Position numbers and translations under genes: made by a program
In this document: piece by piece, positions 5,293 to 35,275 of the stretch
Layout: each line of letters begins with the position of its first letter
Numbering within the stretch: the stretch's first letter is position 1
The notes under the pieces: model-generated
Database searches by the model: none
What the model was told of the DNA's origin: nothing
Seen by the model: the letters and a program-made list of their open reading frames with translations, nothing else
Source of the DNA: Siphonodentalium dalli
Lineage: Eukaryota; Mollusca; Scaphopoda; Gadilida; Siphonodentaliidae
DNA length: 64,000 nt
Reading direction: 5' to 3'
NCBI GenBank assembly: GCA_032622095.1
Contig: CP136064.1
Span: 135,541,129-135,605,128, forward strand

Positions 5293-5301
5293 CCAGTGCG
5301 T
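5293..5301. other. 9-bp target-site duplication, left copy
   Basis: CCAGTGCGT directly precedes the left terminus of the giant foldback element. The identical 9-mer follows the right terminus at 35,267-35,275. In the LINE this 9-mer, reversed, covers the codons for N-A-L. Confidence 0.88.
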
Positions 5302-7409
5302 GGGTCCGTGAAGTTAGCACAACATTCAGCATTCAACATTCGTTCAACATTCGCGTGAAGTTGGCACAACATTCAACATTCAACATTCGTTCAACATTCG
5401 AATTTTCTTGTACATTTGTTTTTGAACGTGAATGGATTGAGTGGGTCGTATATATAGCACCCCTATCAAAATTAGAGTATTCGATACTTCGATGCTCATT
5501 TTTGAGCAATTTTAACATACGATTTTTCTCGTACATAAATTGTTTTAATGTGAATGGATTTAGTGGGTCGTATACATAGCACTCTTATCAAAATGATTAT
5601 TGGATACCTCGACGCTCATTTTTGAGCAATTTCAAATCACGCTCATTTTTGAGCAATTTCAATTCCGGGGGAGAGATGGGGCACATCATATACGCATGAT
5701 AGGATCGGGCCCATATATGCAGGCATTATACCCCGATGGTACTTTAATTCTCCATAGGGCCCACGCCTAGCATGTGTGGTTTTCGCTGGCGAATGTTGAA
5801 CAGAAAGAACATGCAACATTCGTTCAACATTCGCGTGAAGTTGGCACAACATTCAACATTCAACATTCGTTCAACATTCGAATTTTCTTGTACATTTGTT
5901 TTTGAACGTGAATGGATTGAGTGGGTCGTATATATAGCACCCCTATCAAAATTAGAGTATTCGATACTTCGATGCTCATTTTTGAGCAATTTTAACATAC
6001 GATTTTTCTCGTACATAAATTGTTTTAATGTGAATGGATTTAGTGGGTCGTATACATAGCACTCTTATCAAAATGATTATTGGATACCTCGACGCTCATT
6101 TTTGAGCAATTTCAAATCACGCTCATTTTTGAGCAATTTCAAATCACGCTCATTTTTGAGCAATTTCAATTCCGGGGGAGAGATGGGGCACATCATATAC
6201 GCATGATCGGATCGGGCCCATATATGCAGGCATTATACCCCGATGGTACTTTAATTCTCCATAGGGCCCACGCCTAGCATGTGTGGTTTTCGCTGGCGAA
6301 TGTTGAACAGAAAGAACATGCAACATTCGTTCAACATTCGCGTGAAGTTGGCACAACATTCAACATTCAACATTCGTTCAACATTCGAATTTTCTTGTAC
6401 ATTTGTTTTTGAACGTGAATGGATTGAGTGGGTCGTATATATAGCACCCCTATCAAAATTAGAGTATTCGATACTTCGATGCTCATTTTTGAGCAATTTT
6501 AACATTCGATTTTTCTTGTACGTAAATTGTTTTAATGTGAATGGATTTAGTGGGTCGTATACATAGCACTCTTATCAAAATGATTATTGGATACCTCGAC
6601 GCTCATTTTTGAGCAATTTCAAATCACGCTCATTTTTGAGCAATTTCAATTCCGGGGGAGAGAGGGGGCACATCATATACCCATGATCGGATCGGGCCCA
6701 TATATGCAGGCATTATACCCCGATTGTACTTTAATTCTCCATAGGGCCCACGCCTAGCATGTGTGGTTTTCGCTGGCGAATGTTGAACAGAAAGAACATG
6801 CAACAATTGGTTCAACATTCGCGTGAAGTTGGCACAACATTCAACATTCAACATTCGTTCAACATTCGAATTTTCTTGTACATTTGTTTTTGAACGTGAA
6901 TGGATTGAGTGGGTCGTATATATAGAACCCCTATCAAAATTAGAGTATTCGATACTTCGATGCTCATTTTTGAGCAATTGTAACATTCGATTTTTCTTGT
7001 ACATAAATTGTTTTAATGTCAATGGATTTAGTGGGTCGTATACATAGCACTCCTATCAAAATGAGTATTGGATACCTCGACGCTCATTTTTGAGAAATTT
7101 CAAATCACGCTCATTTTTGAGCAATTTCAATTCCGGGGGGGGGAGAGAGGGGGCACATCATATACGCATGATCGGATCGGGCCCATATATGCAGGCATTA
7201 TACCCTGATGGTACTTTAATTCTCCATAGGGCCCACGCCTAGCATGTGTGGTTTTCGCTGGCGAAATGTTGAACTGAAAGAACATGCAACATTCGTTCAA
7301 CATTCGCGTGAAGTTGGCACAACATTCAACATTCAACATTCGTTCAACATTCGAATTTTCTTGTACATTTGTTTTTGAACGTGAATGGATTGAGTGGGTC
7401 GTATATATA

Positions 7410-9360
7410 GCACCCATATCAAATCAAAATTAGAGTATTCGATACTTCGATGCTCATTTTTGAGCAATTTTAACATTCGATTTTTCTTGTACATAAATTG
7501 TTTTAATGTCAATGGATTTAGTGGGTCGTATACATAGCACTCTTATCAAAATGATTATTGCATGGATACCTCGACGCTCATGTTTGAGCAATTTCAAATC
7601 ACGCTCATTTTTTAGCAATTTCAATTCCGGGGGAGAGAGGGGGCACATCATATACGCATGATCGGATCGGGCCCATATATGCAGGCATTATACCCCGATG
7701 GTACTTTAATTCTCCATAGGGCCCACGCCTAGCATGTGTGGTTTTCGCTGGCGAATGTTGAACAGAAAGAACATGCAACATTCGTTCAACATTCGCGTGA
7801 AGTTGGCACAACATTCAACATTCAACATTCGTTCAACATTCGAATTTTCTTGTACATTTGTTTTTGAACGTGAATGGATTGAGTGGGTCGTATATATAGA
7901 ACCCCTATCAAAATTAGAGTATTCGATACTTCGATGCTCATTTTTGAGCAATTTTAACATTCGATTTTTCTTGTACATAAATTGTTTTAATGTCAATGGA
8001 TTTAGTGGGTCGTATACATAGCACTCCTATAAAAATGAGTATTGGATACCTCGACGCTCATTGTTGAGCAATTTCAAATCACGCTCATTTTTGAGCAATT
8101 TCAATTCCGGGGGGGAGAGAGGGGACACATCATATACGCATGATCGGATCGGGCCAATATATGCAGGCATTATACCCTGATGGTACTTTAATTCTCCATA
8201 GGGCCCACGCCTAGCATGTGTGGTTTTCGCTGGCGAATGTTGAACAGAAAGAACATGCAACATTCGTTCAACATTCGCGTGAAGTTGGAACAACATTCAA
8301 CATTCAACATTCGTTCAACATTCGAATTTTCTTGTACATTTGTTTTTGAACGTGAATGGATTGAGTGGGTCGTATATATAGCACCCATATCAAATCAAAA
8401 TTAGAGTATTCGATACTTCGATGCTCATTTTTGAGCAATTTTAACATTCGATTTTTCTTGTACATAAATTGTTTTAATGTCAATGGATTTAGTGGGTCGT
8501 ATACATAGCACTCTTATCAAAATGATTATTGCATGGATACCTCGACGCTCATGTTTGAGCAATTTCAAATCACGCTCATTTTTTAGCAATTTCAATTCCG
8601 GGGGAGAGAGGGGGCACATCATATACGCATGATCGGATCGGGCCCATATATGCAGGCATTATACCCCGATGGTACTTTAATTCTCCATAGGGCCCACGCC
8701 TAGCATGTGTGGTTTTCGCTGGCGAATGTTGAACAGAAAGAACATGCAACATTCGTTCAACATTCGCGTGAAGTTGGCACAACATTCAACATTCAACATT
8801 CGTTCAACATTCGAATTTTCTTGTACATTTGTTTTTGAACGTGAATGGATTGAGTGGGTCGTATATATAGAATCCCTATCAAAATTAGAGTATTCGATAC
8901 TTCGATGCTCATTTTTGAGCAATTTTAACATTCGATTTTTCTTGTACATAAATTGTTTTAATGTCAATGGATTTAGTGGGTCGTATACATAGCACTCCTA
9001 TAAAAATGAGTATTGGATACCTCGACGCTCATTGTTGAGCAATTTCAAATCACGCTCATTTTTGAGCAATTTCAATTCCGGGGGGGAGAGAGGGGACACA
9101 TCATATACGCATGATCGGATCGGGCCAATATATGCAGGCATTATACCCTGATGGTACTTTAATTCTCCATAGGGCCCACGCCTAGCATGTGTGGTTTTCG
9201 CTGGCGAATGTTGAACAGAAAGAACATGCAACATTCGTTCAACATTCGCGTGAAGTTGGAACAACATTCAACATTCAACATTCGTTCAACATTCGAATTT
9301 TCTTGTACATTTGTTTTTGAACGTGAATGGATTGAGTGGGTCGTATATATAGCACCCCTA
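7410..9360 (+). repeat. 971-bp higher-order repeat in left arm
   Basis: A two-unit block is repeated at an offset of 971 bases. The private variants CACCCATATCAAATC (7,411 and 8,382) and TTGCATGGATACC with CTCATGTTTGAGC (about 7,558 and 8,529) recur at this offset, as does the run of units between them. This shows a recent duplication by unequal exchange involving a dimer. Confidence 0.8.
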
Positions 9361-12300
9361 TCAAAATTAGAGTATTCGATACTTCGATGCTCATTTTTGA
9401 GCAATTTTAACATTCGATTTTTCTTGTACATAAATTGTTTTAATGTGAATGGATTTAGTGGGTCGTATACATAGCACTCTTATCAAAATGATTATTGCAT
9501 GGATACCTCGACGCTCATTTTTGAGCAATTTCAAATCACGCTCATTTTTGAGCAATTTCAATTCCGGGGGAGAGAGGGGGCACATCATATACGCATGATC
9601 TGATCGGGCCCATATATGCAGGCATTATACCCTGATGGTACTTTAATTCTCCATAGGGCCCACGCCTGCATGTGTGGTTTTCGCTGGCGAATGTTGAACA
9701 GAAAGAACATGCAACATTCGTTCAACATTCGCGTGAAGTTGGCACAACATTCGTTCAACATTCGAATTTTCTTGTACATTTGTTTTTGAACGTGAATTGA
9801 TTGAGTGGGTCGTATATATAGCACCCCTATCAAAATTAGAGTATTCGATACTTCGATGCTCATTTTTGAGCAATTTTAACATTCGATTTTTCTTGTACAT
9901 AAATTGTTTTAATGTCAATGGATTTAGTGGGTCGTATACATAGCACTCCTATCAAAATGAGTATTGGATACCTCGACGCTCATTTTTGAGCAATTTCAAA
10001 TCACGCTCATTTGAGCAATTTCAATTCCGGGGGAGAGAGGGGGCACATCATATACGCATGATCTGATCGGACCCATATATGCAGGCATTATACCCCGATG
10101 GTACTTTAATTCTCCATAGGGCCCACGCCTAGCATGTGTGGTTTTCGCTGGCGAATGTTGAACAGAAAGAACATGCAACAATTGGTTCAACATTCGCGTG
10201 AAGTTGGCACAACATTCAACATTCAACATTCGTTCAACATTCGAATTTTCTTGTACATTTGTTTTTGAACGTGAATGGATTGAGTGGGTCGTATATATAG
10301 CACCCCTATCAAAATTAGAGTATTCGATACTTCGATGCTCATTTTTGAGCAATTTTAACATTCGATTTTCTTTAACATAAATTGTTTTAATGTCAATGGA
10401 TTTAGTGGGTCGTATACATAGCACTCCTATTAAAATGAGTATTGGATACCTCGACGCTCATGTTTGAGCAATTTCAAATCACGCTAATTTTTTAGCAATT
10501 TCAATTCCGGGGGGAGAGAGGGGGCACATCATATACGCATGATCGGATCGGGCCCATATATGCAGGCATTATACCCCGATGGTACTTTAATTCTCCATAG
10601 GGCCCACGCCTAGCATGTGTGGTTTTTGCTGGCGAATGTTGAACAGAAAGAACATGCAACAATTGGTTCAACATTCGCGTGAAGTTGGCACAACATTCAA
10701 CATTCAACATTCGAATTTTCTTGTACATTTGTTTTTGAACGTGAATGGATTGAGTGGGTCGTATATATAGCACCCCTATCAAAATTAGAGTATTCGATAC
10801 TTCGATGCTCATTTTTGAGCAATTTTAACATTCGATTTTCTTGTACATAAATTGTTTTAATGTCAATGGATTTAGTGGGTCGTATACATAGCACTCCTAT
10901 CAAAATGAGTATCGGATACCTCGACGGTCATTTTTGAGCAATTTCAAATCACGCTCATTTTTTAGCAATTTCAATTCCGGGGGGAGAGAGGGGGCACATC
11001 ATATACGCATGATCGGATCGGGCCCATATATGCAGGCATTATACCCTATGGTACTTTAATTCTCCATAGGGCCCACGCCTAGCATGTGTGGTTTTTGCTG
11101 GCGAATGTTGAACAGAAAGAACATGCAACATTCGTTCAACATTCGCGTGAAGTTGGCACAACATTCAACATTCAACATTCGAATTTTCTTGTACATTTGT
11201 TTTTGAACGTGAATGGATTGAGTGGGTCGTATATATAGAACCCCTATCAAAATTAGAGTATTCGATACTTCGATGCTCATTTTTGAGCAATTTTAACATT
11301 CGATTTTCTTGTACATAAATTGTTTTAATGTCAATGGATTTAGTGGGTCGTATACATAGCACTCCTATCAAAATGAGTATCGGATACCTCGACGGTCATT
11401 TTTGAGCAATTTCAAATCACGCTCATTTTTGAGCAATTTCAATTCCGGGGGGAGAGAGGGGGCACATCATATACGCATGATCGGATCGGGCCCATATATG
11501 CAGGCATTATACTCTGATGGTACTTTAATTCTCCATAGGGCCCACGCTATAGCATGTGTGGTTTTCGCTGGCGAATGTTGAACAGAAAGAACATGCAACA
11601 TTCGTTCAACATTCGCGTGAAGTTGGCACAACATTCAACATTCAACATTCGTTCAACATTCGAATTTTCTTGTACATTTGTTTTTGAACTTGAATGGATT
11701 GAGTGGGTCGTATATATAGCACCCCTATCAAAATTAGAGTATTCGATACTTCGATGCTCATTTTTGAGCAATTTTAACATTCGATTTTTCTTGTACATAA
11801 ATTGTTTTAATGTGATTGGATTTAGTGGGTCGTATACATAGCACTCTTATCAAAATGATTATTGCATGGATACCTCGACGCTCATTTTTGAGCAATTTCA
11901 AATCACGCTCATTTTTGAGCAATTTCAATTCCGAGGGAGAGAGGGGCCACATCATATACGCCTGATCTGATCGGGCCCATATATGCAGGCATTATACCCT
12001 GATGGTACTTTAATTCTCCATAGGGCCCACGCCTGCATGTGTGGTTTTCGCTGGCGAATGTTGAACAGAAAGAACATGCAACATTCGCGTGAAGTTGGCA
12101 CAACATTCGTTTAACATTCGAATTTTCTTGTACATTTGTTTTTGAACGTGAATTGATTGAGTGGGTCGTATATATAGCACCCCTATCAAAATTAGAGTAT
12201 TCGATACTTCGATGCTCATTTTTGAGCAATTTTAACATTCGATTTTTCTTGTACATAAATTGTTTTAATGTGAATGGATTTAGTGGGTCGTATACATAGC

Positions 12301-12831
12301 ACTCCTATCAAAATGAGTATTGGATACCTGGACGCTCATTTTTGAGCAATTTCAAATCACGCTCATTTTTGAGCAATTTCAATTCCGGGGGAGAGAGGGG
12401 GCACATCATATACGCATGATCTGATCGGGCCCATATATGCAGGCATTATACCCCGATGGTACTTTAATTCTCCATAGGGCCCACGCCTAGCATGTGTGGT
12501 TTTCGCTGGCGAATGTTGAACAGAAAGAACATGCAACATTCGTTCAACATTCGCGTGAAGTCGGCACAACATTCAACATTCAACATTCGAATTTTCTTGT
12601 ACATTTGTTTTTGAACGTGAGTGGATTGAGTGGGTCGTATATATAGCACCCCTATCAAAATTAGAGTATTCGATACTTCGATGCTCATTTTTGAGCAATT
12701 TTAACATTCGATTTTTCTCGTACATAAATTGTTTTAATGTGAATGGATTTAGTGGGTCGTATACATAGCACTCTTATCAAAATGATTATTGGATACCTCG
12801 ACGCTCATTTTTGAGCAATTTCAAATCACGC

Positions 12832-14700
12832 TCATTTTTGAGCAATTACAATTCCGGGGGAGATAGGGGGCACATCATATACGCATGATCGGATCGGGCC
12901 CATATATGCAGGCATTATACCCTGATGGTACTTTAATTCTCCATAGGGCCCACGCCTAGCATGTGTGGTTTTCGCTGGCGAATGTTGAACAGAAAGAACA
13001 TGCAACATTCGTTCAACATTCGCGTGAAGTTGGCACAACATTCAACATTCAACATTCGTTCAACATTCGAATTTTCTTGTACATTTGTTTTTGAACGTGA
13101 ATGGATTGAGTGGGTCGTATATATAGAACCCGTATCAAAATTAGAGTATTCGATACTTCGATGCTCCTTTTTGAGCAATTTTAACATTCGATTTTTCTTG
13201 TACATAAATTGTTTTAATGTCAATGGATTTAGTGGGTCGTATACATAGCACTCTTATCAAAATGATTATTGGATACCTCGACGCTCATTTTTGAGCAATT
13301 TCAAATCACGCTCATTTTTGAGCAATTTCAATTCCGGGAGAGAGAGGGGGCACATCATATACGCATGATCTGATCCGGCCCATATATGCAGGTATTATAC
13401 CCTGATGGTAATTTAATTCTCCATAGGGCCCACGCCTAGCATGTGTGGTTTTCGCTGGCGAATGTTCAACAGAAAGAACATGCAACATTCGTTCAACATT
13501 CGCGTGAAGTTGGCACAACATTCAACATTCAACATTCGTTCAACATTCAAATTTTCTTGTACATTTGTTTTTGAACGTGAATGGATTGAGTGGGTCGTAT
13601 ATATAGCACCCCTATCAAAATTAGAGTATTCGATACTCCGATGCTCATTTTTGAGCAATTTTAACATTCGATTTTTCTTGTACATAAATTGTTTTAATGT
13701 GAATGGATTTAGTGGGTCGTATACATAGCACTCTTATCAAAATGATTATTGGATACCTCGACGCTCATTTTTGAGCAATTTCAAATCACGCTCATTTTTG
13801 AGCAATTTCAAATCTGGGGGAGAGAGGGGGCACATCATATACGCATGATCGGACCGGGCCCATATATGCAGGCATTATACTCCGATGGTACTTTAATTCT
13901 CCATAGGGCCCACGCCTAGCATGTGTGGTTTTCGCTGGCGAATGTTGAACAGAAAGAACATGCAACATTCGTTCAACATTCGCGTGAAGTTGGCACAACA
14001 TTCAACATTCAACATTCGTTCAACATTCGAATTTTCTTGTACATTTGTTTTTGAACGTGAATGGATTGAGTGGGTCGTATATATAGAACCCGTATCAAAA
14101 TTAGAGTATTCGATACTTCGATGGTCCTTTTTGAGCAATTTTAACATTCGATTTTTCTTGTACATAAATTGTTTTAATGTCAATGGATTTAGTGGGTCGT
14201 ATATATAGCACTCTTATCAAAATGATTATTGGATACCTCGACGCTCATTTTTGAGAAATTTCAAATCACGCTCATTTTTGAGCAATTTCAATTCCGGGAG
14301 AGAGAGGGGGCACATCATATACGCATGATCTGATCGGGCCCATATATGCAGGTATTATACCCTGATGGTACTTTAATTCTCCATAGGGCCCACGCCTAGC
14401 ATGTGTGGTTTTCGCTGGCGAATGTTGAACAGAAAGAACATGCAACATTCGTTCAACATTCGCGTAAAGTTGGCACAACATTCAACATTCAACATTCGTT
14501 CAACATTCAAATTTTCTTGTACATTTGTTTTTGAACGTGAATGGATTGAGTGGGTGGTATATATAGCACCCCTATCAAAATTAGAGTATTCGATACTTCG
14601 ATGCTCATTTTTGAGCAATTTTAACATTCGATTTTTCTTGTACATAAATTGTTTTAATGTCAATGGATTTAGTGGGTCGTATACATAGCACTCTTATCAA
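12832..14700 (+). repeat. 960-bp higher-order repeat in left arm
   Basis: Units alternate. Those at 12,961 and 13,921 share ATAGAACCCGTATC and TGCTCCTTTTT or TGGTCCTTTTT variants, while those at 13,441 and 14,401 share the variant ACATTCAAATTTTC. Each pair is 960 bases apart, so the local repeat is a dimer of two 480-bp unit types. Confidence 0.8.
13921..14400 (+). repeat. representative 480-bp foldback unit
   Basis: Internal anatomy of one unit. 13,963-14,029 is a run of (TT)CAACATTC microrepeats. 14,030-14,139 is half-unit A, starting TTTTCTTGTACATTTG, with GTGGGTCGTATATATAG. 14,150-14,259 is half-unit B, starting TTTTTCTTGTACATAAATTG, with the same GTGGGTCGTATATATAG core; in most units B carries ATACATAG there. 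14,243-14,290 holds tandem GCTCATTTTTGAGC hairpins. About 14,293-14,310 is a G-rich tract, then the imperfect palindrome CATCATATACGCATGATC and GGGCCC-type sites. Halves A and B are about 120 bases apart and clearly related, so the 480-bp unit grew from a shorter ancestral repeat. Confidence 0.8.
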
Positions 14701-15439
14701 AATGATTATTGGATATCTCGACGCTCATTTTTGAGCAATTTCAAATCACGCTCATTTTTGAGCAATTTCAATTCCGGGGGAGAGAGGGGGCACATCATAT
14801 ACGCATGATCGGATCGGGCCCATATATGCAGGCATTATACCCTGATGGTACTTTAATTCTCCATAGGGCCCACGCCTGCATGTGTGGTTTTCGCTGGCGA
14901 ATGTTCAACAGAAAGAACATGCAACATTCGTTCAACATTCGGGTGAAGTTGGCACAACATTCAACATTCAACATTCGTTCAACATTCGAATTTTCTTGTA
15001 CATTTGTTTTTGAACGTGAATGGATTGAGTGGGTCGTATATATAGCACCCCTATCAAATTTAGAGTATTCGATACTTCGATGCTCATTTTTGAGCAATTT
15101 TAACATTCGATTTTTCTTGTACATAAATTGTTTTAATGTGAATGGATTTAGTGGGTCGTATACATAGCACTCTTATCAAAATGATTATTGGATACCTCGA
15201 CGCTCATTTTTGAGCAATTTCAAATCACGCTCATTTTTTAGCAATTTCAATTCCGGGGGAGAGAGGGGGCACATCATATACGCATGATCGGATCGGGCCC
15301 ATATATGCAGGCATTATACCCCGATTGTACTTTAATTCTCCATAGGGCCAACTCCTAGCATGTGTGGTTTTCGCTGGCGAATGTTCAACAGAAAGAACAT
15401 GCAACATTCGTTCAACATTCGCGTGAAGTTGGCACAACA

Positions 15440-16169
15440 TTCAACATTCGTTCAACATTCGAATTTTCTTGTACATTTGTTTTTTAACGTGAATGGATTG
15501 AGTGGGTCGTATATATAGCACTCCTATCAAAATGAGTATTGGATACTTCGACGCTCATTTTTGAGCAATTTCAATTCCGGGGGAGAGAGGGGGCACATCA
15601 TATACGCATGATCGGATCGGGCCCATATATGCAGGGATTTACCCTGATGGTACTTTAATTCTCCATAGGGCCCAAGCCTAGCATGTGTGGTTTTCGCTGG
15701 CGAATGTTGAACAGAAAGTACATTCAACATTCGTTCAACATTCGTGTGAAGTTGGCACAACATTCAACATTCAACATTCGTTCAACATTTCTTGTATTGT
15801 ACATAAGTTTTTTCAACGTGAATGGATTAAGTGTGTCGTATATATAGCACCCCTATCAAAATTAGAGTATTCGATACTTCGATGCTCATTTTTCAACGTG
15901 AATGGATTTAGTGGGTCGTATATATAGCACTCCTATCAAAATGAGTATTGGATACTTCGATGCTCATTTTTGAGCAATTTTAACATTCGATTTTTCTTGT
16001 ACATAAATTGTTTTAACGTGAATGGATTTAGTGGGTCGTATATATAGCACTCCTATAGTATGAAAAGTATAGTATTCGATATATACTTCGATGCTCATTT
16101 TTGAGGAATTTTAATTCCGGGGGGGGGGGGTGACACATATATACGCATGATAGGATCGGGCCCATATAC
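15440..16169 (+). repeat. degenerate inner edge of left arm
   Basis: Here the regular 480-bp periodicity breaks into shorter, diverged pieces. Half-unit phrases GTGAATGGATTnAGTG and TATATAGCAC recur at about 15,490, 15,820, 15,900 and 16,017 with deletions, and the final G-rich tract is followed by GGGCCCATATA where similarity stops at about 16,169. Decayed edges with fresh centres are usual in arrays kept uniform by unequal exchange. Confidence 0.8.
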
Positions 16170-16834
16170 ATGACGTCATGACTGCCATTCCGAGATTCAA
16201 TGGTTACATGTATTACATTTTACTCTGGTTATCGCCCCATTCTCAAGTATCGAAATTGAACGAATATCTCTGACATCTCTTCTCGAAACGTGTGAAATAT
16301 CTCTGTCAAATATGTCACCTTTATTGCAAAAATGACCGATTTTATCATCAGATACCTCAATCAAACCAAGTGGTGATAAAAAAAAAGTCCGCCTATCTCA
16401 CAAATCCAACATAGGCCAATAGGCCCAATACGGATCCCGAAAGTCAAGTGTTTATGTTAACGAACAATGTATATAGGTCTTATAATTTTCCTCTCGATGC
16501 AATACCTATATATAACATTGTCGTACAAAACGACGTATTTTATCGCACCGGGTTATAGATGCGTAACCTTAAACAAAAAATTTGGTACAAACATAATCAT
16601 GTTTGATCACGAAATCTTTCACTCGTATCTATCACTACACCATACCGCATGATAGTTCAGATAAGTAAGCTATACACTGATATTGCGGAGTACTTAAGAC
16701 GAAAATAAAACATAATTATAAAGTACAAGTATTTTTGGCAGTATTGCTATTTAGTTAGCGAACGGGGATAATTTGAAGAGCAGAATAATGGGAACTATAT
16801 CTTTGGCCGGGGGGATGCGCGCAGTTATACTGCG

Positions 16835-17212
16835 TTAAACATTCTTTCCAATAATGTATTTGCTGAGGACAGTCGCTTGTGTTGACAACCCTCCCTCCCT
16901 CCCTGTTTTTGTTTTGTTTTGGGACATATATACGCGTTCGATTGGCGTCTCCCCCTTTTGGCTTACATCTGTATAGGCGGTTATTGTGCCTAAAAAAATT
17001 GGCACCCACTTGTTTGTATTGGTTACTACTACATTTATTGTATCGGCTTCCTGTAAATAATTATGATTTTCTGAACAGGTAGCTATAAACGCATTCCAGT
17101 TGTTGTCTTTCACTGTAACCCTGTGGGATAAATGTCCATAATTGCCTATATAGACTAGATCACTTTCATTGAGGTATATATAGGACCCCTGGATATATGT
17201 TTTTACCATCAA
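16835..17212 (-). CDS. hypothetical 125-aa frame in foldback core
   Basis: A minus-strand frame of 125 codons starts MMVKTYIQGS. It has balanced, protein-like composition (several N, W, Y and aromatic residues, for example NNWNAF and NKWVPIFLG) for its first ~85 residues, then a basic tail coming from a CCCTCC-rich stretch. I recognise no domain, no signal peptide and no membrane segment. An overlapping minus-strand frame (16,755-17,009) is probably a shadow. It could be a captured exon, a decayed element gene or chance. It is one of the few frames in the core not made of repeats. Confidence 0.22.
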   Translation of the reverse strand: MMVKTYIQGSYIYLNESDLVYIGNYGHLSHRVTVKDNNWNAFIATCSENHNYLQEADTINVVVTNTNKWVPIFLGTITAYTDVSQKGETPIERVYMSQNKTKTGREGGLSTQATVLSKYIIGKNV

Positions 17213-17312
17213 TTCAGCAGGAAGTTTGAATGGTATGCGGCTGATACGCGGACCCTGGCTCTTACGGACCCTGTCTGATACGGACCATGCAGTTAATTGT
17301 TTTGGTAGTTTG

Positions 17313-18080
17313 ATTTCTCAATGAACATGGCATGTCACTGACTCACATCTTATAATGGATATAGTATCAATGATTTATAATAATTCATATATACCGGTAT
17401 AAGGGGTAGGGGTTGTAGCAACTGATTTATATTAATTCATATAGACCGATATTCCTTATTGTAAGGGATAGGGGTGGTAGTCTCTGGTGTATAATAATTA
17501 ATATATATACCGGTATTACTTATTATAAGCTAGGGGTAGTGGTGGTACCACTGAGTTATAATAATTTATTTAAACCGGCATTACTTATTATGAGGGGTAT
17601 AGGGGTGGTAAAAAAATTCTCAATGAACATGGCATGTCACTGACTCACATCTTATAATGGATATAGTATCAATGATTTATAATAATTCATATATACCGGT
17701 ATAAGGGGTAGGGGTTGTAGCAACTGATTTATATTAATTCATATATTCCGGTATTACTTATTATAAGGAACATGCAGAATGCACTCTACCGTGGTAGCCT
17801 ATGATTTATAATAATTTATATATACCGGTATTCCATATTATAAGGGGTATAGAGGTGGTATATAGGCTCAGATTTATAATAATTCATATAAACCTGTATT
17901 ACTTATTATGGGGGGTATAGGGATGGTAACCTATGATAATAATTCAAAGATACCGCACTCCATATTATAGGGTATAGGTGGTATAGCCTATGATTTATAA
18001 TAATTCATATATTCCGGTATTCCTTATTATAAGGGGTAGGGGTAGTAGTCTCTGATTTATAATAACTTCTGTATACCTGT
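17313..18080. repeat. ~62-bp minisatellite with CCGGTAT cores
   Basis: About 11 copies of GATTTATAATAATTCATATA followed by TACCGGTATT, CCTTATTATAAGG and GGTAGGGGTGGTAG variants. A larger segment (17,313-17,440, containing CTCAATGAACATGGCATGTC) recurs at about 17,610-17,748, so the array also carries a ~297-bp secondary duplication. Confidence 0.85.
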
Positions 18081-18514
18081 ATTTACATGCATGGTATTCA
18101 CATATATGGCAATTGGTTGCACGATATAACATTTATTTGTAGCGCCTATTATATAGTATATTATATAACTATATATGTACTATATATATACACGTGTACA
18201 TATATTCGCGCTACCATCGCGCATATACATAATTTGTACTGTATATTGGTATATATGTATAATATACCGGTATATATAGGCCTCTATATCTACGGATGAC
18301 CATTTTGTGACGGTAACCGGTGGTGCACCTTTAAATAAATCGACCGATGCATTAGATTCGACGCGATGAAGATGCGTCCGTCTGAAACAAAATTGACCGC
18401 AGTCGCATCACCGACGGATTTAATACAATTAGATTCGAGTCGACAAAAATCCGTCGTTTGGAACGGGCCTAACGGACCCCGTAAAATCATGCTTGAATTT
18501 TTACTTTCCAGTTA
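18081..18514. other. AT-rich stretch, no gene
   Basis: 18,115-18,290 is dominated by TATATA-type alternation including the palindrome TATACACGTGTACATATA. 18,300-18,510 is mixed sequence containing ATTAGATTCGA twice. Nothing coding is recognised. Confidence 0.5.
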
Positions 18515-18539
18515 TCTCATATATATTTTGAAGACCTCT

Positions 18540-22218: not shown

Positions 22219-23924
22219 GTACAAGAAAATTCGAATGTTGAACGAATGTTGAATGTTGAATGTTGTGCCAATTTCACGCGAATGTTGAACGAATGTTGAA
22301 TGTTGTGCCAATTTCACGCGAATGTTGAACGAATGTTGCATGTTCTTTCTGTTCAACATTCGCCAGCGAAAACCACACATGCAGGCGTGGGCCCTATGGA
22401 GAATTAAAGTACCATAAGGGTATAATGCCTGCATATATGGGCCCGATCCGATCATGCGTATATGATGTGCCCCCTCTCTCCCCCGGAATTGAAATTGCTC
22501 AAAAATGAGCGTGATTTGAAATTGCTCAAAAATGAGCGTCGAGGTATCCAATACTCATTTTGATAGGAGTGCTATGTATACGACCCACTAAATCCATTCA
22601 CATTAAAACAATTTATGTACAAGAAAAATCGAATGTTAAAATTGCTCAAAAATGAGCATCGAAGTATCGAATACTCTAATTTTGATAGGGGTGCTATATA
22701 TACGACCCACTCAATCCATTCACGTTCAAAAACAAATGTACAAGAAAATTCGAATGTTGAACGAATGTTGAATGTTGAATGTTGTGCCAACTTCACGCGA
22801 ATGTTGAATGAATGTTGCATGTTCTTTCTGTTCAACATTCGCCAGCGAAAACCACACATGCTAGGCGTGGGCCCTATGGAGAATTAAAGTACCATCGGGG
22901 TATAATGCCTGCATATATGGGCCGGAACCGATCATGCGTATATGATGTGCCCCCTATCTCCCCCGGAATTGAAATTGCTCAAAAATGAGCGTGATTTGAA
23001 ATTGCTCAAAAATGAGCGTCGAGGTATCCAATAATCATTTTGATAAGAGTGCTATGTATACGACCCACTAAATCCATTCACATTAAAACAATTTATGTAC
23101 AAGAAAAATCGAATGTTAAAATTGCTCAAAAATGAGCATCGAAGTATCGAATACTCTAATTTTGATAGGGGTGCTATATATACGACCCACTCAATCCATT
23201 CACGTTCAAAAACAAATGTACAAGAAAATTCGAATGTTGAACGAATGTTGAATGTTGAATGTTGTGCCAACTTCACGCGAATGTTGAACGAATGTTGCAT
23301 GTTCTTTCTGTTCAACATTCGCCAGCGAAAACCACACATGCTAGGCGTGGGCCCTATGGAGAATTAAAGTACCATCAGGGTATAATGCCTGCATATATGG
23401 GCCCGATCCGATCATGCGTATATGATGTGCCCCCTCTCTCCCCCCGGAATTGAAATTGCTCAAAAATGAGCGTGATTTGAAATTGCTCAAAAATGAGCGT
23501 CGAGGTATCCAATTCTCATTTTGATAAGAGTGCTATGTATACGACCCACTAAATCCATTCACATTAAAACAATTTATGTACAAGAAAAATCGAATGTTAA
23601 AATTGCTCAAAAATGAGCATCGAAGTATCGAATACTCTAATTTTGATATGGGTGCTATATATACGACCCACTCAATCCATTCACGTTCAAAAACAAATGT
23701 ACAAGAAAATTCGAATGTTGAACGAATGTTGAATGTTGTGCCAACTTCACGCGAATGTTGAACGAATGTTGCATGTTCTTTCTGTTCAACATTCGCCAGC
23801 GAAAACCACACATACAGGCGTGGGCCCTATGGAGAATTAAAGTACCATCAGGGTATAATGCCTGCATATATGGGCCCGATCCGATCGTGCGTATATGATG
23901 TGCACCCTCTCTCCCCCCGGAATT

Positions 23925-23965
23925 GAAATTGCTCAAAAAACCACACATGCTAGGCGTGGGCCCTA
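23925..23965 (-). repeat. deleted unit junction in right arm
   Basis: A unit jumps from GAAATTGCTCAAAAA directly to AACCACACATGCTAGGC at about 23,939, skipping roughly 330 bases of the normal unit including half-units A and B. The remaining 180-base fragment carries only the CCACACATG...GGGCCC...CTCAAAA segment. This is an internal deletion. Confidence 0.8.
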
Positions 23966-24615
23966 TGGAGAATTAAAGTACCATCAGGGTATAATGCCTG
24001 CATATATGGGCCCGATCCGATCATGAGTATATGATGTGCCCCCTCTCTCCCCCCGGAATTGAAATTGCTCAAAAATGAGCGTGATTTGAAATTGCTCAAA
24101 AATGAGCGTCGATGTATCCAATAATCATTTTGATAAGAGTGCTATGTATACGACCCACTAAATCCATTCACATTAAAACAATTTATGTACAAGAAAAATC
24201 GAATGTTAAAATTGCTCAAAAATGAGCATCGAAGTATCGAAATACTCTAATTTTGATAGGGGTGCTATATATACGACCCACTCAATCCATTCACGTTCAA
24301 AAACAAATGTACAAGAAAATTCGAATGTTGAACGAATGTTGAATGTTGTGCCAACTTCACGCGAATGTTGAACGAATGTTGCATGTTCTTTCTGTTCAAC
24401 ATTCGCCAGCGAAAACCACACATGCTAGGCGTGGGCCCTATGGAGAATTAAAGTACCATCAGGGTATAATGCCTGCATATATGGGCCCGATCCGATCATG
24501 CGTATATGATGTGCCCCCTCTCTCCCCCGGAATTGAAATTGCTCAAAAATGAGCGTGATTTGAAATTGCTCAAAAATGAGCGTCGATGTATCCAATACTC
24601 ATTTTGATAAGAGTG

Positions 24616-27600
24616 CTATGTATACGACCCACTAAATCCATTCACATTAAAACAATTTATGTACAAGAAAAATCGAATGTTAAAATTGCTCAAAAATGAG
24701 CATCGAAGTATCGAATACTCTAATTTTGATAGGGGTGCTATATATACGACCCACTCAATCCATTCACGTTCAAAAACAAATGTACAAGAAAATTCGAATG
24801 TTGAATGTTGTGCCAATTTCACGCGAATGTTGAACGAATGTTGCATGTTCTTTCTGTTCAACATTCGCCAGCGAAAACCACACATGCTAGGCGTGGGCCC
24901 TATGGAGAATTAAAGTACCATCAGGGTATAATGCCTGCATATATGGGCCCGATCCGATCATGCGTATATGATGTGCCCCTCGCTCCCCCGGAATTGAAAT
25001 TGCTCAAAAATGAGCGTGATTTGAAATTGCTCAAAAATGAGCGTCGAGGTGTCCAATAATCATTTTGATAGGAGTGCTATGTATACGACCCACTAAATCC
25101 ATTGACATTAAAATAATTTCTGTACAAGAAAAATCGAATGTTAAAATTGCTCAAAAATGAGCATCGAAGTATCGAATACTCTAATTTTGATAGGGGTTAT
25201 ATATATACGACCCACTCAATCCATTCACGTTCAAAAACAAATGTACAAGAAAATTCGAATGTTGAATGTTGTGCCAACTTCACGCGAACGTTGAACGAAT
25301 GTTGCATGTTCTTTCTGTTCAACATTCGCCAGCGAAAACCACACATGCTAGGCGTGGGCCCTATGGATAATTAAAGTACCATCGGGGTATAATGCCTGCA
25401 TATATGGGACCGAACCGATCATGCGTATATGATGTGCCCCCTATCTCCCCCGGAATTGAAATTGCTCAAAAATGAGCGTGATTTGAAATTGCTCAAAAAT
25501 GAGCGTCGAGGTATCCAATAATCATTTTGATAAGAGTGCTATGTATACGACCCACTAAATCCATTGACACTAAAACAATTTATGTACAAGAAAAATCGAA
25601 TGTTAAAATTGCTCAAAAATGAGCATCGAAGTATCGAATACTCTAATTTTGATAGGGGTGCTATATATACGACCCACTCAATCCATTCACGTTCAAAAAC
25701 AAATGTACAAGAAAATTCGAATGTTGAACGAATGTTGAATGTTGAATGTTGTGCCAACTTCACGCGAATGTTGAATGAATGTTGCATGTTCTTTCTGTTC
25801 AACATTCGCCAGTGAAAACCACACATGCTAGGCGTGGGCCCTATGGAGAATTAAAGTACCATCGGGGTATAATGCCTGCATATATGGGCCGGATCCGATC
25901 ATGCGTATATGATGTGCCCCCTATCTCCCCCGGAATTGAAATTGCTCAAAAATGAGCGTGATTTGAAATTGCTCAAAAATGAGCGTCGAGGTATCCAATA
26001 ATCATTTTGATAAGAGTGCTATGTATACGACCCACTAAATCCATTCACATTAAAACAATTTATGTACAAGAAAAATCGAATGTTAAAATTGCTCAAAAAT
26101 GAGCATCGAAGTATCGAATACTCTAATTTTGATAGGGGTGCTATATATACGACCCACTCAATCCATTCACGTTCAAAAACAAATGTACAAGAAAATTCGA
26201 ATGTTGAACGAATGTTGAATGTTGAATGTTGTGCCAACTTCGCGCGAATGTTGAACGAATGTTGCATGTTCTTTCTGTTGAACATTCGCCAGCGAAAACC
26301 ACACATGCTAGGCGTGGGCCCTATGGAGAATTAAAGTACCATCAGGGTATAATGCCTGCATATATGGGCCCGATCCGATCATGCGTATATGATGTGCCCC
26401 CTCTCTCCCCCCGGAATTGAAATTGCTCAAAAAAATGAGCGTGATTTGAAATTGCTCAAAAATGAGCGTCGAGGTGTCCAATAATCATTTTGATAGGAGT
26501 GCTATGTATACGACCCACTAAATCCATTCACATTAAAACAATTTATGTACAAGAAAAAAAGAATGTTAAAATTGCTATGGAATGTGCATCGAAGTATCGA
26601 ATACTCTAATTTTGATAGGGGTGTTATATATACGACCCACTCAATCCATTCACGTTCAAAAACAAATGTACAAGAAAATTCGAATGTTGAACGAATGTTG
26701 AATGTTGTGCCAACTTCACGCGAATGTTGAACGAATGTTGCATGTTCTTTCTGTTCAACATTCGCCAGCGAAAACCACACATGCTAGGCGTGGGCCCTAT
26801 GGAGAATTAAAGTACCATCAGGGTATAATGCCTGCATATATGGGCCCGATCCGATCGTGCGTATATGATGTGCCCCCTCTCTCCCCCCGGAATTGAAATT
26901 GCTCAAAAATGAGCGTGATTTGAAATTGCTCAAAAATGAGCGTCGAGGTATCCAATAATCATTTTGATAAGAGTGCTATGTATACGACCCACTAAATCCA
27001 TTCACATTAAAACAATTTATGTACAAGAAAAAAAGAATGTTAAAATTGCTCAAAAATGAGCATCGAAGTATCGAATACTCTAATTTTGATAGGGGTGCTA
27101 TATATACGACCCACTCAATCCATTCACGTTCAAAAACAAATGTACAAGAAAATTCGAATGTTGAACGAATGTTGAATGTTGTGCCAACTTCACGCGAATG
27201 TTGAACGGATGTTGCATGTTCTTTCTGTTCAACATTCGCCAGCGAAAACCACACATGCAGGCGTGGGCCCTATGGAGATTTAAAGTACCATAAGGGTATA
27301 ATGCCTGCATATATGGGCCCGATCCGATCATGCGTATATGATGTGCCCCCTCTCTCCCCCGGAATTGAAATTGCTCAAAAATGAGCGTGATTTGAAATTG
27401 CTCAAAAATGAGCGTCGATGTATCCAATAATCATTTTGATAAGAGTGCTATGTATACGACCCACTAAATCCATTCACATTAAAACAATTTATGTACAAGA
27501 AAAATCGAATGTTAAAATTGCTCAAAAATGAGCATCGAATACTCTAATTTTGATAGGGGTGCTATATATACGACCCACTCAATCCATTCACGTTCAAAAA

Positions 27601-30600
27601 CAAATGTACAAGAAAATTCGAATGTTGAACGAATGTTGAATGTTGTGCCAACTTCACGCGAATGTTGAACGAATGTTGCATGTTCTTTCTGTTGAACATT
27701 CGCCAGCGAAAACCACACATGCTAGGCGTGGGCCCTATGGAGAATTAAAGTACCATCAGGGTATAATGCCTGCATCTATGGGCCCGATCCGATCATGAGT
27801 ATATGATGTGCCCCCTCTCTCCCCACGGAATTGAAATTTCTCAAAAATGAGCGTGATTTGAAATTGCTCAAAAATGAGCGTCGATGTATCCAATAATCAT
27901 TTTGATAAGAATGCTATGTATACGACCCACTAAATCCATTCACATTAAAACAATTTATGTACAAGAAAAATCGAATGTTAAAATTGCTCAAAAATGAGCA
28001 TCGAAGTATCGAATACTCTAATTTTGATAGGGGTGCTATATATACGACCCACTCAATCCATTCACGTTCAAAAACAAATGTACAAGAAAATTCGAATGTT
28101 GAACGAATGTTGAATGTTGAATGTTGTGCCAACTTCACGCGAATGTTGAACGAATGTTGCATGTTCTTTCTGTTCAACATTCGCCAGCGAAAACCACACA
28201 TGCTAGGCGTGGGCCCTATGGAGAATTAAAGTACCATCAGGGTATAATGCTTGCATATATGGGCCCGATCCGATCATGAGTATATGATGTGCCCCCTCTC
28301 TCCCCCCGGAATTGAAATTGCTCAAAAATGAGCGTGATTTGAAATTGCTCAAAAATGAGCGTCGATGTATCCAATAATCATTTTGATAAGAGTGCTATGT
28401 ATACGACCCACTAAATCCATTCACATTAAAACAATTTATGTACAAGAAAAATCGAATGTTAAAATTGCTCAAAAATGAGCATCGAAGTATCGAATACTCT
28501 AATTTTGATAGGGGTTCTATATATACGACCCACTCAATCCATTCACGTTCAAAAACAAATGTACAAGAAAATTCGAATGTTGAACGAATGTTGAATGTTG
28601 TGCCAACTTCACGCGAATGTTGAACGAATGTTGCATGTTCTTTCTGTTCAACATTCGCCAGCGAAAACCACACATTGCAGACGTGGGCCCTATGGAGAAT
28701 TAAAGTACCATCAGGGTATAATGCCTGCATATATGGGCCCGATCCGATCATGCGTATATGGAATTGAAATTGCTCAAAAATGAGCGTGATTGAAATTGCT
28801 CAAAAATGAGCGTCGATGTATCCAATAATCATTTTGATAAGAGTGCTATGTATACGACCCACTAAATCCATTGACATTAAAACAATTTATGTACAAGAAA
28901 AATCGAATGTTAAAATTGCTATGGAATGTGCATCGAAGTATCGAATACTCTAATTTTGATAGGGGTGCTATATATACGACCCACTCAATCCATTCACGTT
29001 CAAAAACAAATGTACAAGAAAATTCGAATGTTGAACGAATGTTGAATGTTGTGCCAACTTCACGCGAATGTTGAACGAATGTTGCATGTTCTTTCTGTTC
29101 AACATTCGCCAGCGAAAACCACACATGCTAGGCGTGGGCCCTATGGAGAATTAAAGTACCATCAGGGTATAATGCCTGCATATATGGGCCCGATCCGATC
29201 ATGAGTATATGATGTGCCCCCTCTCTCCCCCCGGAATTGAAATTGCTCAAAAATGAGCGTGATTTGAAATTGCTCAAAAATGAGCGTCGATGCATCCAAT
29301 AATCATTTTGATAAGAGTGCTATATGTATACGACCCACTAAATCCATTCACATTAAAACAATTTATGTACAAGAAAAATCGAATGTTAAAATTGCTCAAA
29401 AATGAGCATCGAAGTATCGAATACTCTAATTTTGATAGGGGTGCTATATATACGACCCACTCAATCCATTCACGTTCAAAAACAAATGTACAAGAAAATT
29501 CGAATGTTGAACGAATGTTGAATGTTGTGCCAACTTCACGCGAATGTTGAACGAATGTTGCATGTTCTTTCTGTTCAACATTCGCCAGCGAAAACCACAC
29601 ATGCTAGGCGTGGGCCCTATGGAGAATTAAAGTACCATCAGGGTATAATGCCTGCATATATGGGCCCGATCCGATCATGCATATATGATGTGCCCCCTCT
29701 CTCCCCCGGAATTGAAATTGCTCAAAAATGAGCGTGATTTGAAATTGCTCAAAAATGAGCGTCGATGTATCCAATACTCATTTTGATAAGAGTGCTATGT
29801 ATACGACCCACTAAATCCATTCACATTAAAACAATTTATGTACAAGAAAAATCGAATGTTAAAATTGCTCAAAAATGAGCATCGAAGTATCGAATACTCT
29901 AATTTTGATAGGGGTGCTATATATACGACCCACTCAATCCATTCACGTTCAAAAACAAATGTACAAGAAAATTCGAATGTTGAATGTTGAATGTTGTGCC
30001 AATTTCACGCGAATGTTGAACGAATGTTGCATGTTCTTTCTGTTCAACATTCGCCAGCGAAAACCACACATGCTAGGCGTGGGCCCTATGGAGAATTAAA
30101 GTACCATCAGGGTATAATGCCTGCATATATGGGCCCGATCCGATCATGCGTATATGATGTGCCCCTCGCTCCCCCGGAATTGAAATTGCTCAAAAATGAG
30201 CGTGATTTGAAATTGCTCAAAAATGAGCGTCGAGGTGTCCAATAATCATTTTGATAGGAGTGCTATGTATACGACCCACTAAATCCATTGACATTAAAAC
30301 AATTTATGTACAAGAAAAATCGAATGTTAAAATTGCTCAAAAATGAGCATCGAAGTATCGAATACTCTAATTTTGATAGGGGTTCTATATATACGACCCA
30401 CTCAATCCATTCACGTTCAAAAACAAATGTACAAGAAAATTCGAATGTTGAATGTTGTGCCAACTTCACGCGAATGTTGAACGAATGTTGCATGTTCTTT
30501 CTGTTCAACATTCGCCAGCGAAAACCACACATGCTAGGCGTGGGCCCTATGGATAATTAAAGTACCATCGGGGTATAATGCCTGCATATATGGGACCGAA

Positions 30601-32130
30601 CCGATCATGCGTATATGATGTGCCCCCTATCTCCACCGGAATTGAAATTGCTCAAAAATGAGCGTGATTTGAAATTGCTCAAAAATGAGCGTCGAGGTAT
30701 CCAATAATCATTTTGATAAGAGTGCTATGTATACGACCCACTAAATCCATTGACACTAAAACAATTTATGTACAAGAAAAATCGAATGTTAAAATTGCTC
30801 AAAAATGAGCATCGAAGTATCGAATACTCTAATTTTGATAGGGGTGATATATATACGACCCACTCAATCCATTCACGTTCAAAAACAAATGTACAAGAAA
30901 ATTCGAATGTTGAACGAATGTTGAATGTTGAATGTTGTGCCAACTTCACGCGAATGTTGAATGAATGTTGCATGTTCTTTCTGTTCAACATTCGCCAGCG
31001 AAAACCACACATGCAGGCGTGGGCCCTATGGAGAATTAAAGTACCATCAGGGTATAATGCCTGCATATATGGGCCCGATCCGATCATGCGTATATGATGT
31101 GCCCCCTCTCTCCCCCCGGAATTGAAATCGCTCAAAAATGAGCGTGATTTGAAATTGCTCAAAAATGAGCGTCGATGTATCCAATAATCATTTTGATAAG
31201 AGTGCTATGTATACGACCCACTAAATCCATTCACATTAAAACAATTTATGTACAAGAAAAAAAGAATGTTAAAATTGCTCAAAAATGAGCATCGAAGTAT
31301 CGAATACTCTAATTTTGATAGGGGTGCTATATATACGACCCACTCAATCCATTCACGTTCAAAAACAAATGTACAAGAAAATTCGAATGTTGAACGAATG
31401 TTGAATGTTGTGCCAACTTCACGCGAATGTTGAACGAATGTTGCATGTTCTTTCTGTTCAACATTCGCCAGCGAAAACCACACATGCTAGGCGTGGGCCC
31501 TATGGAGAATTAAAGTACCATCGGGGTATAATGCCTGCATATATGGGCCCGATCCGATCGTGCGTATATGATGTGCCCCCACTCTCCCGCAGGAATTGAA
31601 ATTGCTCAAAAATGAGCGTGATTTGAAATTGCTCAAAAATGAGCGTCGAGGTATCCAATAATCATTTTGATAAGAGTGCTATGTATACGACCCACTAAAT
31701 CCATTCACATTAAAACAATTTATGTACAAGAAAAAAAGAATGTTAAAATTGCTCAAAAATGAGCATCGAAGTATCGAATACTCTAATTTTGATAGGGGTG
31801 CTATATATACGACCCACTCAATCCATTCACGTTCAAAAACAAATGTACAAGAAAATTCGAATGTTGAACGAATGTTGAATGTTGTGCCAACTTCACGCGA
31901 ATGTTGAACGGATGTTGCATGTTCTTTCTGTTCAACATTCGCCAGCGAAAACCACACATGCAGGCGTGGGCCCTATGGAGATTTAAAGTACCATCAGGGT
32001 ATAATGCCTGCATATATGGGCCCGATCCGATCATGCGTATATGATGTGCCCCCTCTCTCCCCCGGAATTGAAATTGCTCAAAAATGAGCGTGATTTGAAA
32101 TTGCTCAAAAATGAGCGTCGATGTATCCAA
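24616..32130 (-). repeat. ~5-kb segmental duplication within right arm
   Basis: Rare unit variants recur in the same order at long offsets. The unit with GTGCCCCTCGCTCCCCC at about 24,972 recurs at about 30,158 (offset 5,186). The ATTGACACTAAAACAATT unit at 25,563 recurs at 30,749 (offset 5,186). The AAAAAAAGAATGTTAAAATT units with the GAACGGATGTTGC variant at 27,205 recur at 31,908 (offset 4,703). The change of offset equals one unit, so a multi-unit block was duplicated and one unit gained or lost. Confidence 0.8.
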
Positions 32131-33102
32131 TAATCATTTTGATAAGAGTGCTATGTATACGACCCACTAAATCCATTCACATTAAAACAATTTATGTACA
32201 AGAAAAATCGAATGTTAAAATTGCTCAAAAATGAGCATCGAAGTATCGAATACTCTAATTTTGATAGGGGTGCTATATATACGACCCACTCAATCCATTC
32301 ACGTTCAAAAACAAATGTACAAGAAAATTCGAATGTTGAACGAATGTTGAATGTTGAATGTTGTGCCAACTTCACGCGAATGTTGAACGAATGTTGCATG
32401 TTCTTTCTGTTGAACATTCGCCAGCGAAAACCACACATGCTAGGCGTGGGCCCTATGGAGAATTAAAGTACCATCAGGGTATAATGCCTGCATATATGGG
32501 CCCGATCCGATCATGAGTATATGATGTGCCCCCTCTCTCCCCCCGGAATTGAAATTGCTCAAAAATGAGCGTGATTTGAAATTGCTCAAAAATGAGCGTC
32601 GATGTATCCAATAATCATTTTGATAAGAGTGCTATGTATACGACCCACTAAATCCATTCACATTAAAACAATTTATGTACAAGAAAAATCGAATGTTAAA
32701 ATTGCTCAAAAATGAGCATCGAAGTATCGAATACTCTAATTTTGATAGGGGTGCTATATATACGACCCACTCAATCCATTCACGTTCAAAAACAAATGTA
32801 CAAGAAAATTCGAATGTTGAACGAATGTTGAATGTTGTGCCGACTTCACGCGAATGTTGAACGAATGTTGCATGTTCTTTCTGTTCAACATTCGCCAGCG
32901 AAAACCACACATGCAGACGTGGGCCCTATGGAGAATTAAAGTACCATCAGGGTATAATGCCTGCATATATGGGCCCGATCCGATCATGCGTATATGGTGT
33001 GCCCCCTATCTCCCCCGGAATTGAAATTGCTCAAAAATGAGCGTGATTGAAATTGCTCAAAAATGAGCGTCGAGGTATCCAATAATCATTTTGATAAGAG
33101 TG

Positions 33103-34801
33103 CTATGTATACGACCCACTAAATCCATTGACATTAAAACAATTTATGTACAAGAAAAATCGAATGTTAAAATTGCTCAAAAATGAGCATCGAAGTATCG
33201 AATACTCTAATTTTGATAGGGGTTCTATATATACGACCCACGCAATCCATTCACTTTCAAAAACAAATGTACAAGAAAATTCGAATGTTGAACGAATGTT
33301 GAATGTTGTGCCAACTTCACGCGAATGTTGAACGAATGTTGCATGTTCTTTCTGTTCAACATTCGCCAGCGAAAACCACACATGCTAGGCGTGGGCCCTA
33401 TGGAGAATTAAAGTACCATCAGGGTATAATGCCTGCATATATGGGCCCGATCCGATCATGCGTATATGATGTGCCCCCTCTCTCCCCCCGGAATTGAAAT
33501 TGCTCAAAAATGAGCGTGATTTTAAATTGCTCAAAAATGAGCGTCGAGGTATCCAATAATCATTTTGATAAGAGTGCTATGTATACGACCCACTAAATCC
33601 ATTCACATTAAAACAATTTATGTACAAGAAAAAAAGAATGTTAAAATTGCTCAAAAATGAGCATCGAAGTATCGAATACTCTAATTTTGATAGGGGTGCT
33701 ATATATACGACCCACTCAATCCATTCACGTTCAAAAACAAATGTACAAGAAAATTCGAATGTTGAACGAATGTTGAATGTTGTGCCAACTTCACGCGAAT
33801 GTTGAACGGATGTTGCATGTTCTTTCTGTTCAACATTCGCCAGCGAAAACCGCACATGCAGACGTGGGCCCTATGGAGAATTAAAGTACCATCAGGGTAT
33901 AATGCCTGCATATATGGGCCCGATCCGATCATGCGTATATGATGTGCCCCCTATCTCCCCCGGAATTGAAATTGCTCAAAAATGAGCGTGATTTGAAATT
34001 GCTCAAAAATGAGCGTCGAGGTATCCAATAATCATTTTGATAAGAGTGCTATGTATACGACCCACTAAATCCATTGACATTAAAACAATTTATGTACAAG
34101 AAAAATCGAATGTTAAAATTGCTCAAAAATGAGCATCGAAGTATCGAATACTCTAATTTTGATAGGAGTGCTATATATACGACCCACTCAATCCATTCAC
34201 ATTCAAAAACAAATGTACAAGAAAATTCGAATGTTGAACGAATGTTGAATGTTGTGCCAACTTCACGCGAATGTTGAACGAATGTTGCATGTTCTTTCTG
34301 TTCAACATTCGCCAGCGAAAACCACACATGCTAGGCGTGGGCCCTATGGAGAATTAAAGAACCATCAGGGTATAATGCCTGCATATATGGGCCCGATCCG
34401 ATCATGCGTATATGATGTGCCCCCTCTCTCCCCCCGGAATTGAAATTGCTCAAAAATGAGCGTGATTTGAAATTGCTCAAAAATGAGCGTCGAGGTATCC
34501 AATACTCATTTTGATAGGAGTGCTATGTATACGACCCACTAAATCCATTGACATTAAAACAATTTATGTACAAGAAAAATCGAATGTTAAAATTGCTCAA
34601 AAATGAGCATCGAAGTATCGAATACTCTAATTTTGATAGGGGTTCTATATATACGACCCACGCAATCCATTCACTTTCAAAAACAAATGTACAAGAAAAT
34701 TCGAATGTTGAACGAATGTTGAATGTTGTGCCAACTTCACGCGAATGTTGAACGAATGTTGCATGTTCTTTCTGTTCAACATTCGCCAGCGAAAACCACA
34801 C
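33103..34801 (-). repeat. 1,420-bp (three-unit) higher-order repeat
   Basis: The private variant GACCCACGCAATCCATTCAC with TTTCAAAAACAAATG occurs at about 33,235 and again at about 34,655, exactly 1,420 bases apart. The flanking units match too. This marks a recent three-unit duplication near the outer edge of the right arm. Confidence 0.75.
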
Positions 34802-35266
34802 ATGCTAGGCGTGGGCCCTATGGAGAATTAAAGTACCATCGGGGTATATTGCCTGCATATATGGGCCCGATCCGATCATGCGTATATGATGTGCCCCCTC
34901 TCTCCCCCGGAATTGAAATTGCTCAAAAATGAGCGTGATTTGAAATTGCTCAAAAATGAGCGTCGAGGTATCCAATAATCATTTTGATAAGAGTGCTATG
35001 TATACGACCCACTAAATCCATTCACATTAAAACAATTTATGTACAAGAAAAATCGAATGTTAAAATTGCTCAAAAATGAGCATCGAAGTATCGAATACTC
35101 TAATTTTGATAGGGGTGTTATATATACGACCCACTCAATCCATTCACGTTCAAAAACAAATGTACAAGAAAATTCGAATGTTGAACGAATGTTGAATGTT
35201 GTGCCAACTTCACGCGAATGTTGAACGAATGTTGAATGTTGAATGTTGTGCTAACTTCACGGACAC

Positions 35267-35275
35267 CCAGTGCGT
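35267..35275. other. 9-bp target-site duplication, right copy
   Basis: CCAGTGCGT, identical to 5,293-5,301, follows the right terminus ...CACGGACAC. It lies inside the LINE codons for N-A-L on the minus strand. Confidence 0.88.

Follow-up and report, generated by a model that had tools for sequence, protein, structure and literature searches.

Giant foldback transposons with satellite arms in the scaphopod Siphonodentalium dalli

Can a DNA transposon carry whole satellite-like arrays as its terminal inverted repeats, and do such arrays move, grow in place, or both? This question is raised by a 30-kb block in the genome of Siphonodentalium dalli (GCA_032622095.1), which lies within a 64,000-nucleotide stretch of contig CP136064.1 (positions 135,541,129 to 135,605,128; hereafter the window, to which coordinates without prefix refer). 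The original prediction, made from the sequence alone, described two inverted ~480-bp tandem arrays of 10.9 and 13.0 kb around a 6-kb core, near-identical inverted outer ends, identical 9-mers immediately outside, and an interrupted minus-strand LINE frame, and inferred that the block moved or was built as one foldback element that links transposition to satellite formation. Our analyses confirm that these features are present as described, apart from small corrections. They also support the interpretation, although transposition of the window copy at its present size is not shown.

One inserted element in a LINE-like repeat

Window 5302-35266 is one inserted element, the parts of which, with the adjoining host sequence, are as follows.

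5165-5299, minus strand: host LINE-like repeat, downstream part of the interrupted frame up to its stop
5293-5301, no strand: left copy of the 9-bp target-site duplication, CCAGTGCGT
5302-5320, plus strand: left terminal cap, GGGTCCGTGAAGTTAGCAC
5302-16168, plus strand: left arm, consisting of the cap plus a tandem array of ~480-bp units (21 by motif splitting), the inner end less regular
16169-22231, no strand: core of about 6.1 kb
22232-35266, minus strand: right arm, an inverted tandem array of ~474-480-bp units (27 by motif splitting)
35248-35266, minus strand: right terminal cap (GTGTCCGTGAAGTTAGCAC read inward), one base different from the left cap
35267-35275, no strand: right copy of the 9-bp target-site duplication, CCAGTGCGT
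35277-35639, minus strand: host LINE-like repeat, upstream part of the same frame

Tandem Repeats Finder reported 480 bp x 21.4 at 5330-15571, 480 bp x 3.5 at 22279-23939 and 474 bp x 23.9 at 23937-35240, and the two arms are inverted copies that are about 95% alike over 9.5 kb. Homology to units of other elements extends to about 16168 on the left, while sub-repeats of the unit begin at 22232 on the right, such that the arms measure 10.9 and 13.0 kb, as predicted. The cap core GTCCGTGAAGTTAGCAC occurs once at each end, inverted (5304 plus, 35248 minus). Two small corrections are needed: the outermost ends differ at one base (GGGTCC against GTGTCC), and CCAGTGCGT also occurs at 1997 and 2088, in a 91-bp repeat outside the element. 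The core contains no stop-free frame longer than 160 aa, but pieces of it (18157-18999, 19840-20201 and 20729-20926) match at 87-96% the cores of four other giant elements of this genome, designated A25, B23, C22 and D20.

Joining the flanks with one CCAGTGCGT gives a single open minus-strand frame of the kind seen near the end of LINE reverse-transcriptase proteins. The label LINE rests on protein motifs and on dispersed copies of the repeat, as Pfam gave no match for the 121-aa piece from the right flank. A 420-base query of the rejoined site had 59 listed matches, of which 26 run through the insertion point with at least 20 query bases on each side and no insert, at 75-96% identity. The other 33 are the two halves at the window, its inverted duplicate (described below), and pieces that stop before or start after the point. 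Such copies of the host repeat without an insert had been named beforehand as a test of the insertion, as had 9-bp duplications at other loci, and both came out in its favour.

Arrays this long are hard to assemble, and the region lies next to a large inverted duplication of the assembly of unsettled cause, so that two array ends might have been wrongly joined around a core. However, both ends share one 9-bp duplication and one interrupted host frame, and nine of ten further giants chosen by size have exact duplications, none of which a wrong join would produce. We therefore consider an assembly artefact very unlikely.

A family with common caps and 9-bp duplications

The 19-base left cap has 219 exact copies in the 2.23-Gb genome (110 forward and 109 reverse), against none for the reversed pattern. 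Neighbouring caps within 60 kb face inward (+/-) 55 times, and are -- five times, -+ twice and ++ twice. The 55 inward-facing pairs span 286 bp to 40.8 kb; 27 are below 2.5 kb and 19 are 10 kb or more. We read the flanks of 47 pairs, some with one inexact cap and the window included, and found exact 9-bp duplications at 35. Among the first 37 pairs, 26 have identical 9-mers immediately outside both ends, 27 are within one mismatch and 30 within two, whereas 1,332 mismatched partners of these pairs gave 0, 0 and 10, respectively; the duplications are thus more than chance. Two of the 11 misses pair an outer with an inner cap in a segmentally duplicated element at C1:56.52 and 57.09 Mb (C prefixes denote positions elsewhere in the genome); with the outer caps the 9-mer CATAATATT is present on both sides, shifted by one base. 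Ten more giants (16.8-40.8 kb) were picked by size before their flanks were read, leaving out C6:55712457-55737876 (25.4 kb), and of these nine are exact and one has a single mismatch.

Among pairs of 10 kb or more, 15 of 20 tested are exact. The five misses are the elements G20 (19.9 kb; two mismatches) and I11, and the pairs at C7:71.25 Mb (one mismatch), C8:104.61 Mb and C2:111.12 Mb. The C8 pair (C8:104614215-104636903) has flanks that are inverted copies of each other at 98.3% over 3.2 kb, including the arm ends, for a reason that remains unresolved, and was counted as a failure. Inverted ends and a duplication of constant length do not fit a Helitron or Helentron with an internal satellite, as these have no terminal inverted repeat and no target-site duplication.

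No transposase between GKGTCCGTGAAG ends was found. We examined stop-free frames of the window core, of six giants, of seven further elements and of G20. Nine window and element frames compared with Pfam gave no family over its cut-off (two weak matches fell on one frame), and three frames of G20 gave none; as only some of the longer frames were compared, short exons are not excluded. MULE domains are plentiful in this genome, but none of the 150 scored (of 813 candidates, with exons searched separately) lies within 51 kb of the 186 caps, out of 219, that were compared. A long gag-pol-like frame in the element F15 and reverse-transcriptase-like frames in I11 are taken to be nested insertions.

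It is possible that the transposase is not of Mutator type, and that the foldback structure arose in another superfamily as Galileo did in the P superfamily. Foldback-like elements carry different transposases (PMC3169594; PMC3573991), and the absence of scored MULE domains near the caps compared is consistent with this view. In contrast, 9-bp duplications are the usual length for Tm1, a Phantom/Mutator foldback (PMC3169594), and fall within the range of about 8-11 bp for the Mutator superfamily, while Galileo copies are bounded by 7-bp sequences (PMC3573991). Given these duplications and the abundance of MULE domains, we regard a non-Mutator transposase as unlikely.

Arrays that travel and arrays that change in place

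To examine the arms of other giants, we compared five whole elements (A25, B23, C22, D20 and F15) with the window. A25, B23, C22 and D20 have multi-unit arrays in both arms, with spacings of about 430-584 bp and unequal lengths: B23 has 15 units in one arm and seven in the other, and C22 has seven 584-bp units in one arm. F15 has four units in one arm and only one full unit in the other (left), and G20 shows no ~450-580-bp array, indicating that not every giant owes its size to satellite arms. The motif CGTGAAGTT[A/G]GCAC, the inner part of the cap, recurs at unit spacing along the arms of six giants, while in the window the complete cap core stands only at the two ends.

Did these arrays move, or did small or short-armed copies land and grow separately at each site? 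A25, B23, C22 and D20 share core blocks, the main ones 97-98% identical, with B23 inverted relative to A25; their 160-bp flanks show no match to each other and their duplications are all different. For each of their 65 arm units we asked where its closest relative among the other three elements lies. With B23 turned to match its core, 65 of 65 lie in the matching arm, whereas the seven other orientation assignments give 18 to 41. Ten of the 65 units have several near-equal best matches and tandem neighbours are not independent, so that the strength of this result is eight arms agreeing rather than 65 units. Consistent with it, C22 and D20 left arms align from the cap for 3,562 bp at 97.1%, and B23 left with D20 right for 4,387 bp at 97.0%, running from arm into core. 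Arms of several units and a core of about 10 kb therefore predate these insertions, and multi-unit arrays moved with the element. The one-armed expansions of B23 and C22 and the changes in array length described next would fit growth after landing, but we consider it unlikely that large copies never moved.

The window from 20588 rightwards has an inverted duplicate, at C4:135,692,635-135,712,090, running down from C4:135,712,090. Three compared stretches are identical (1,040 bp of flank, 2,413 bp of core and 1,501 bp at the window's right end), but the right arm has 27 units in the window and 36 in the duplicate, 26 of the 36 being identical to a window unit. The order in the duplicate is 1-5, then 2-5 again, 6, two units that the window lacks, then 5, 6 and two such units again, then 8 onwards, and seven of eight comparisons between the repeated blocks are identical. 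Window unit 7 differs from unit x16 of the duplicate only in one seven-column stretch near its start, where it matches x15: a hybrid that accounts for one unit fewer. Unit x12 resembles x16 in its first part and window unit 4 in its last part, apart from one interleaved site, as expected at a block-duplication junction. Two four-unit duplications and one unit loss thus give the difference of nine, which we read as unequal homologous exchange. The duplicate could be a true segmental copy or a misplaced second haplotype; the absence of substitutions in about 5 kb favours a recent copy. A foldback at the centre of the large inverted duplication is not supported, as the 4-kb axis region shows inverted arms around about 1.4 kb without a match, and only short matches (up to 102 bp) to the elements.

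In the window copy, 41 of 48 units are closest to a unit of the same arm, six to the other arm and one to another element, and mean identities within and between its arms are similar (0.975, 0.980, 0.976). Copying of one whole arm from the other is not supported, as the best left-right unit matches follow no order. Growth after landing, or in a recent donor, is likely, and transposition at the present 30 kb is not proven.

Foldback transposition and satellite growth

We conclude, with a probability of roughly 0.85, that the block is one insertion of a non-autonomous, foldback-type DNA transposon. The sequences themselves establish the insertion into a dispersed repeat with a 9-bp duplication, a family with the same cap and duplication length, inverted repeats built of ~450-580-bp units that carry a copy of the inner part of the cap, the arrival of four multi-unit giants at unrelated sites with shared core blocks and arm-specific units, and gains and losses of whole units between the window's right arm and its duplicate. 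The mechanism, however, is inferred: a transposase supplied in trans, most likely of Mutator (MULE) type, would cut at the outermost cap, the only complete one; internal motifs may be extra binding sites; and arrays would grow and shrink by unequal homologous exchange within an arm, so that the two arms of a copy drift apart in length. In this view, the window copy either landed with shorter arms that grew, or came from a donor that had already grown.

Long terminal inverted repeats of tandem subrepeats, variable in length between copies and between ends, fit the name foldback in its structural sense, and comparisons with named families are of structure rather than sequence. The closest is Tetris of Drosophila virilis (PMC4079207), which has long inverted repeats with internal ~220-bp tandem repeats that share a stretch with the terminal domain, 8-10-bp duplications (8-9 bp in its three structurally complete copies), no coding capacity, a short MITE relative (DAIBAM), and arrays elsewhere of up to 66 copies of 220 bp said to have amplified within the element; unequal exchange and the link of transposition to satellite formation had already been proposed there. 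Tetris terminal inverted repeats reach 1,735 bp, and its authors suggest that larger arrays may have disrupted transposition. Tm1 of root-knot nematodes (PMC3169594) likewise has composite terminal inverted repeats of variable length with tandem repeats, mostly 9-bp duplications and MITE-like members, but its repeat is ~14 bp and a Phantom-type transposase is known. Galileo (PMC3573991) has ~210-bp tandem repeats inside terminal inverted repeats of up to about 1.26 kb, with independent change of the two and discussion of secondary transposase-binding sites. FB/NOF of Drosophila melanogaster, which like Galileo had been cited in the original prediction, has inverted repeats made of subrepeats of tens of bp, and 9-bp duplications.

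The present family works like a Foldback/Tetris/Tm1 element, but has arms about six to ten times the terminal inverted repeats given in the Tetris and Galileo papers, many giants with intact duplications, and evidence of both transport and change of arrays. Searches of open-access literature brought up no description of arms of this size, Tetris, Tm1 and Galileo being nearest. DNA transposition efficiency is stated to drop above 6 kb of cargo (PMC6431247).

How transposons give rise to satellite DNA is an open question. Here, one genome holds many site-tagged copies, four giants whose arms kept their identity through transposition, and a duplicate pair in which single unequal-exchange events can be read unit by unit, making the order of growth and movement testable from sequence. 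It is about as likely as not that a transposon-satellite cycle operates, in which arrays carried to new sites grow there by unequal exchange and copies grown to 20-40 kb still transpose because only the outermost cap is a complete end, so that movement and satellite growth feed each other instead of one ending the other. The 21 and 27 units of the window arms and the 36 of the duplicate are long head-to-tail arrays, as in satellite DNA. The unit motif CGTGAAGTTGGCACAACATTC occurs 626 times in the genome as exact copies; among 100 of these, one one-armed array of 36 motif hits (C1:176533761-176550339) ends in a cap with substitutions.

The inverted duplication and the right flank

A large inverted duplication involves window 20588-64000 and C4:135561716-135712090 of the genome assembly. 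The stretches compared (1,040, 2,413 and 1,501 bp) are 100% identical, while the axis region has inverted arms around about 1.4 kb without a match, and one outer limit lies inside the foldback core at 20588. The duplication could be a true palindrome, or it could be an assembly or haplotype artefact.

Within the flank, we found a young dispersed repeat (window 35776-37941; 39 of 41 listed matches at 99-100%) inserted with an apparent 3-bp TAA duplication, whereas the inverted duplicate at C4:135.69 Mb has the empty site. A separate tandem array, at window 52497-56181, consists of 23 copies of a ~164-bp unit at 79% matches.

Arrays and caps at other loci

At C1:176533761-176550339 there is a one-armed array with 36 hits of the unit motif and a repeating pattern of spacings about every ten units. 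Its end has a cap with substitutions, and no second arm was seen in the 5.4 kb read on the inner side. At C8:104612200-104638900, the flanks of a pair of caps are inverted copies of each other at 98.3% over 3.2 kb, as if one end and its flank had been duplicated in inverted order.

Frames inside family members

Frames that look like gag-pol and reverse transcriptase lie inside two elements of the family, F15 and I11, and are probably nested retroelements. In addition, G20, a 19.9-kb family member, contains two neighbouring frames of 189 and 371 aa (positions 2945-4810 of locus L087), for which a Pfam search returned no match.
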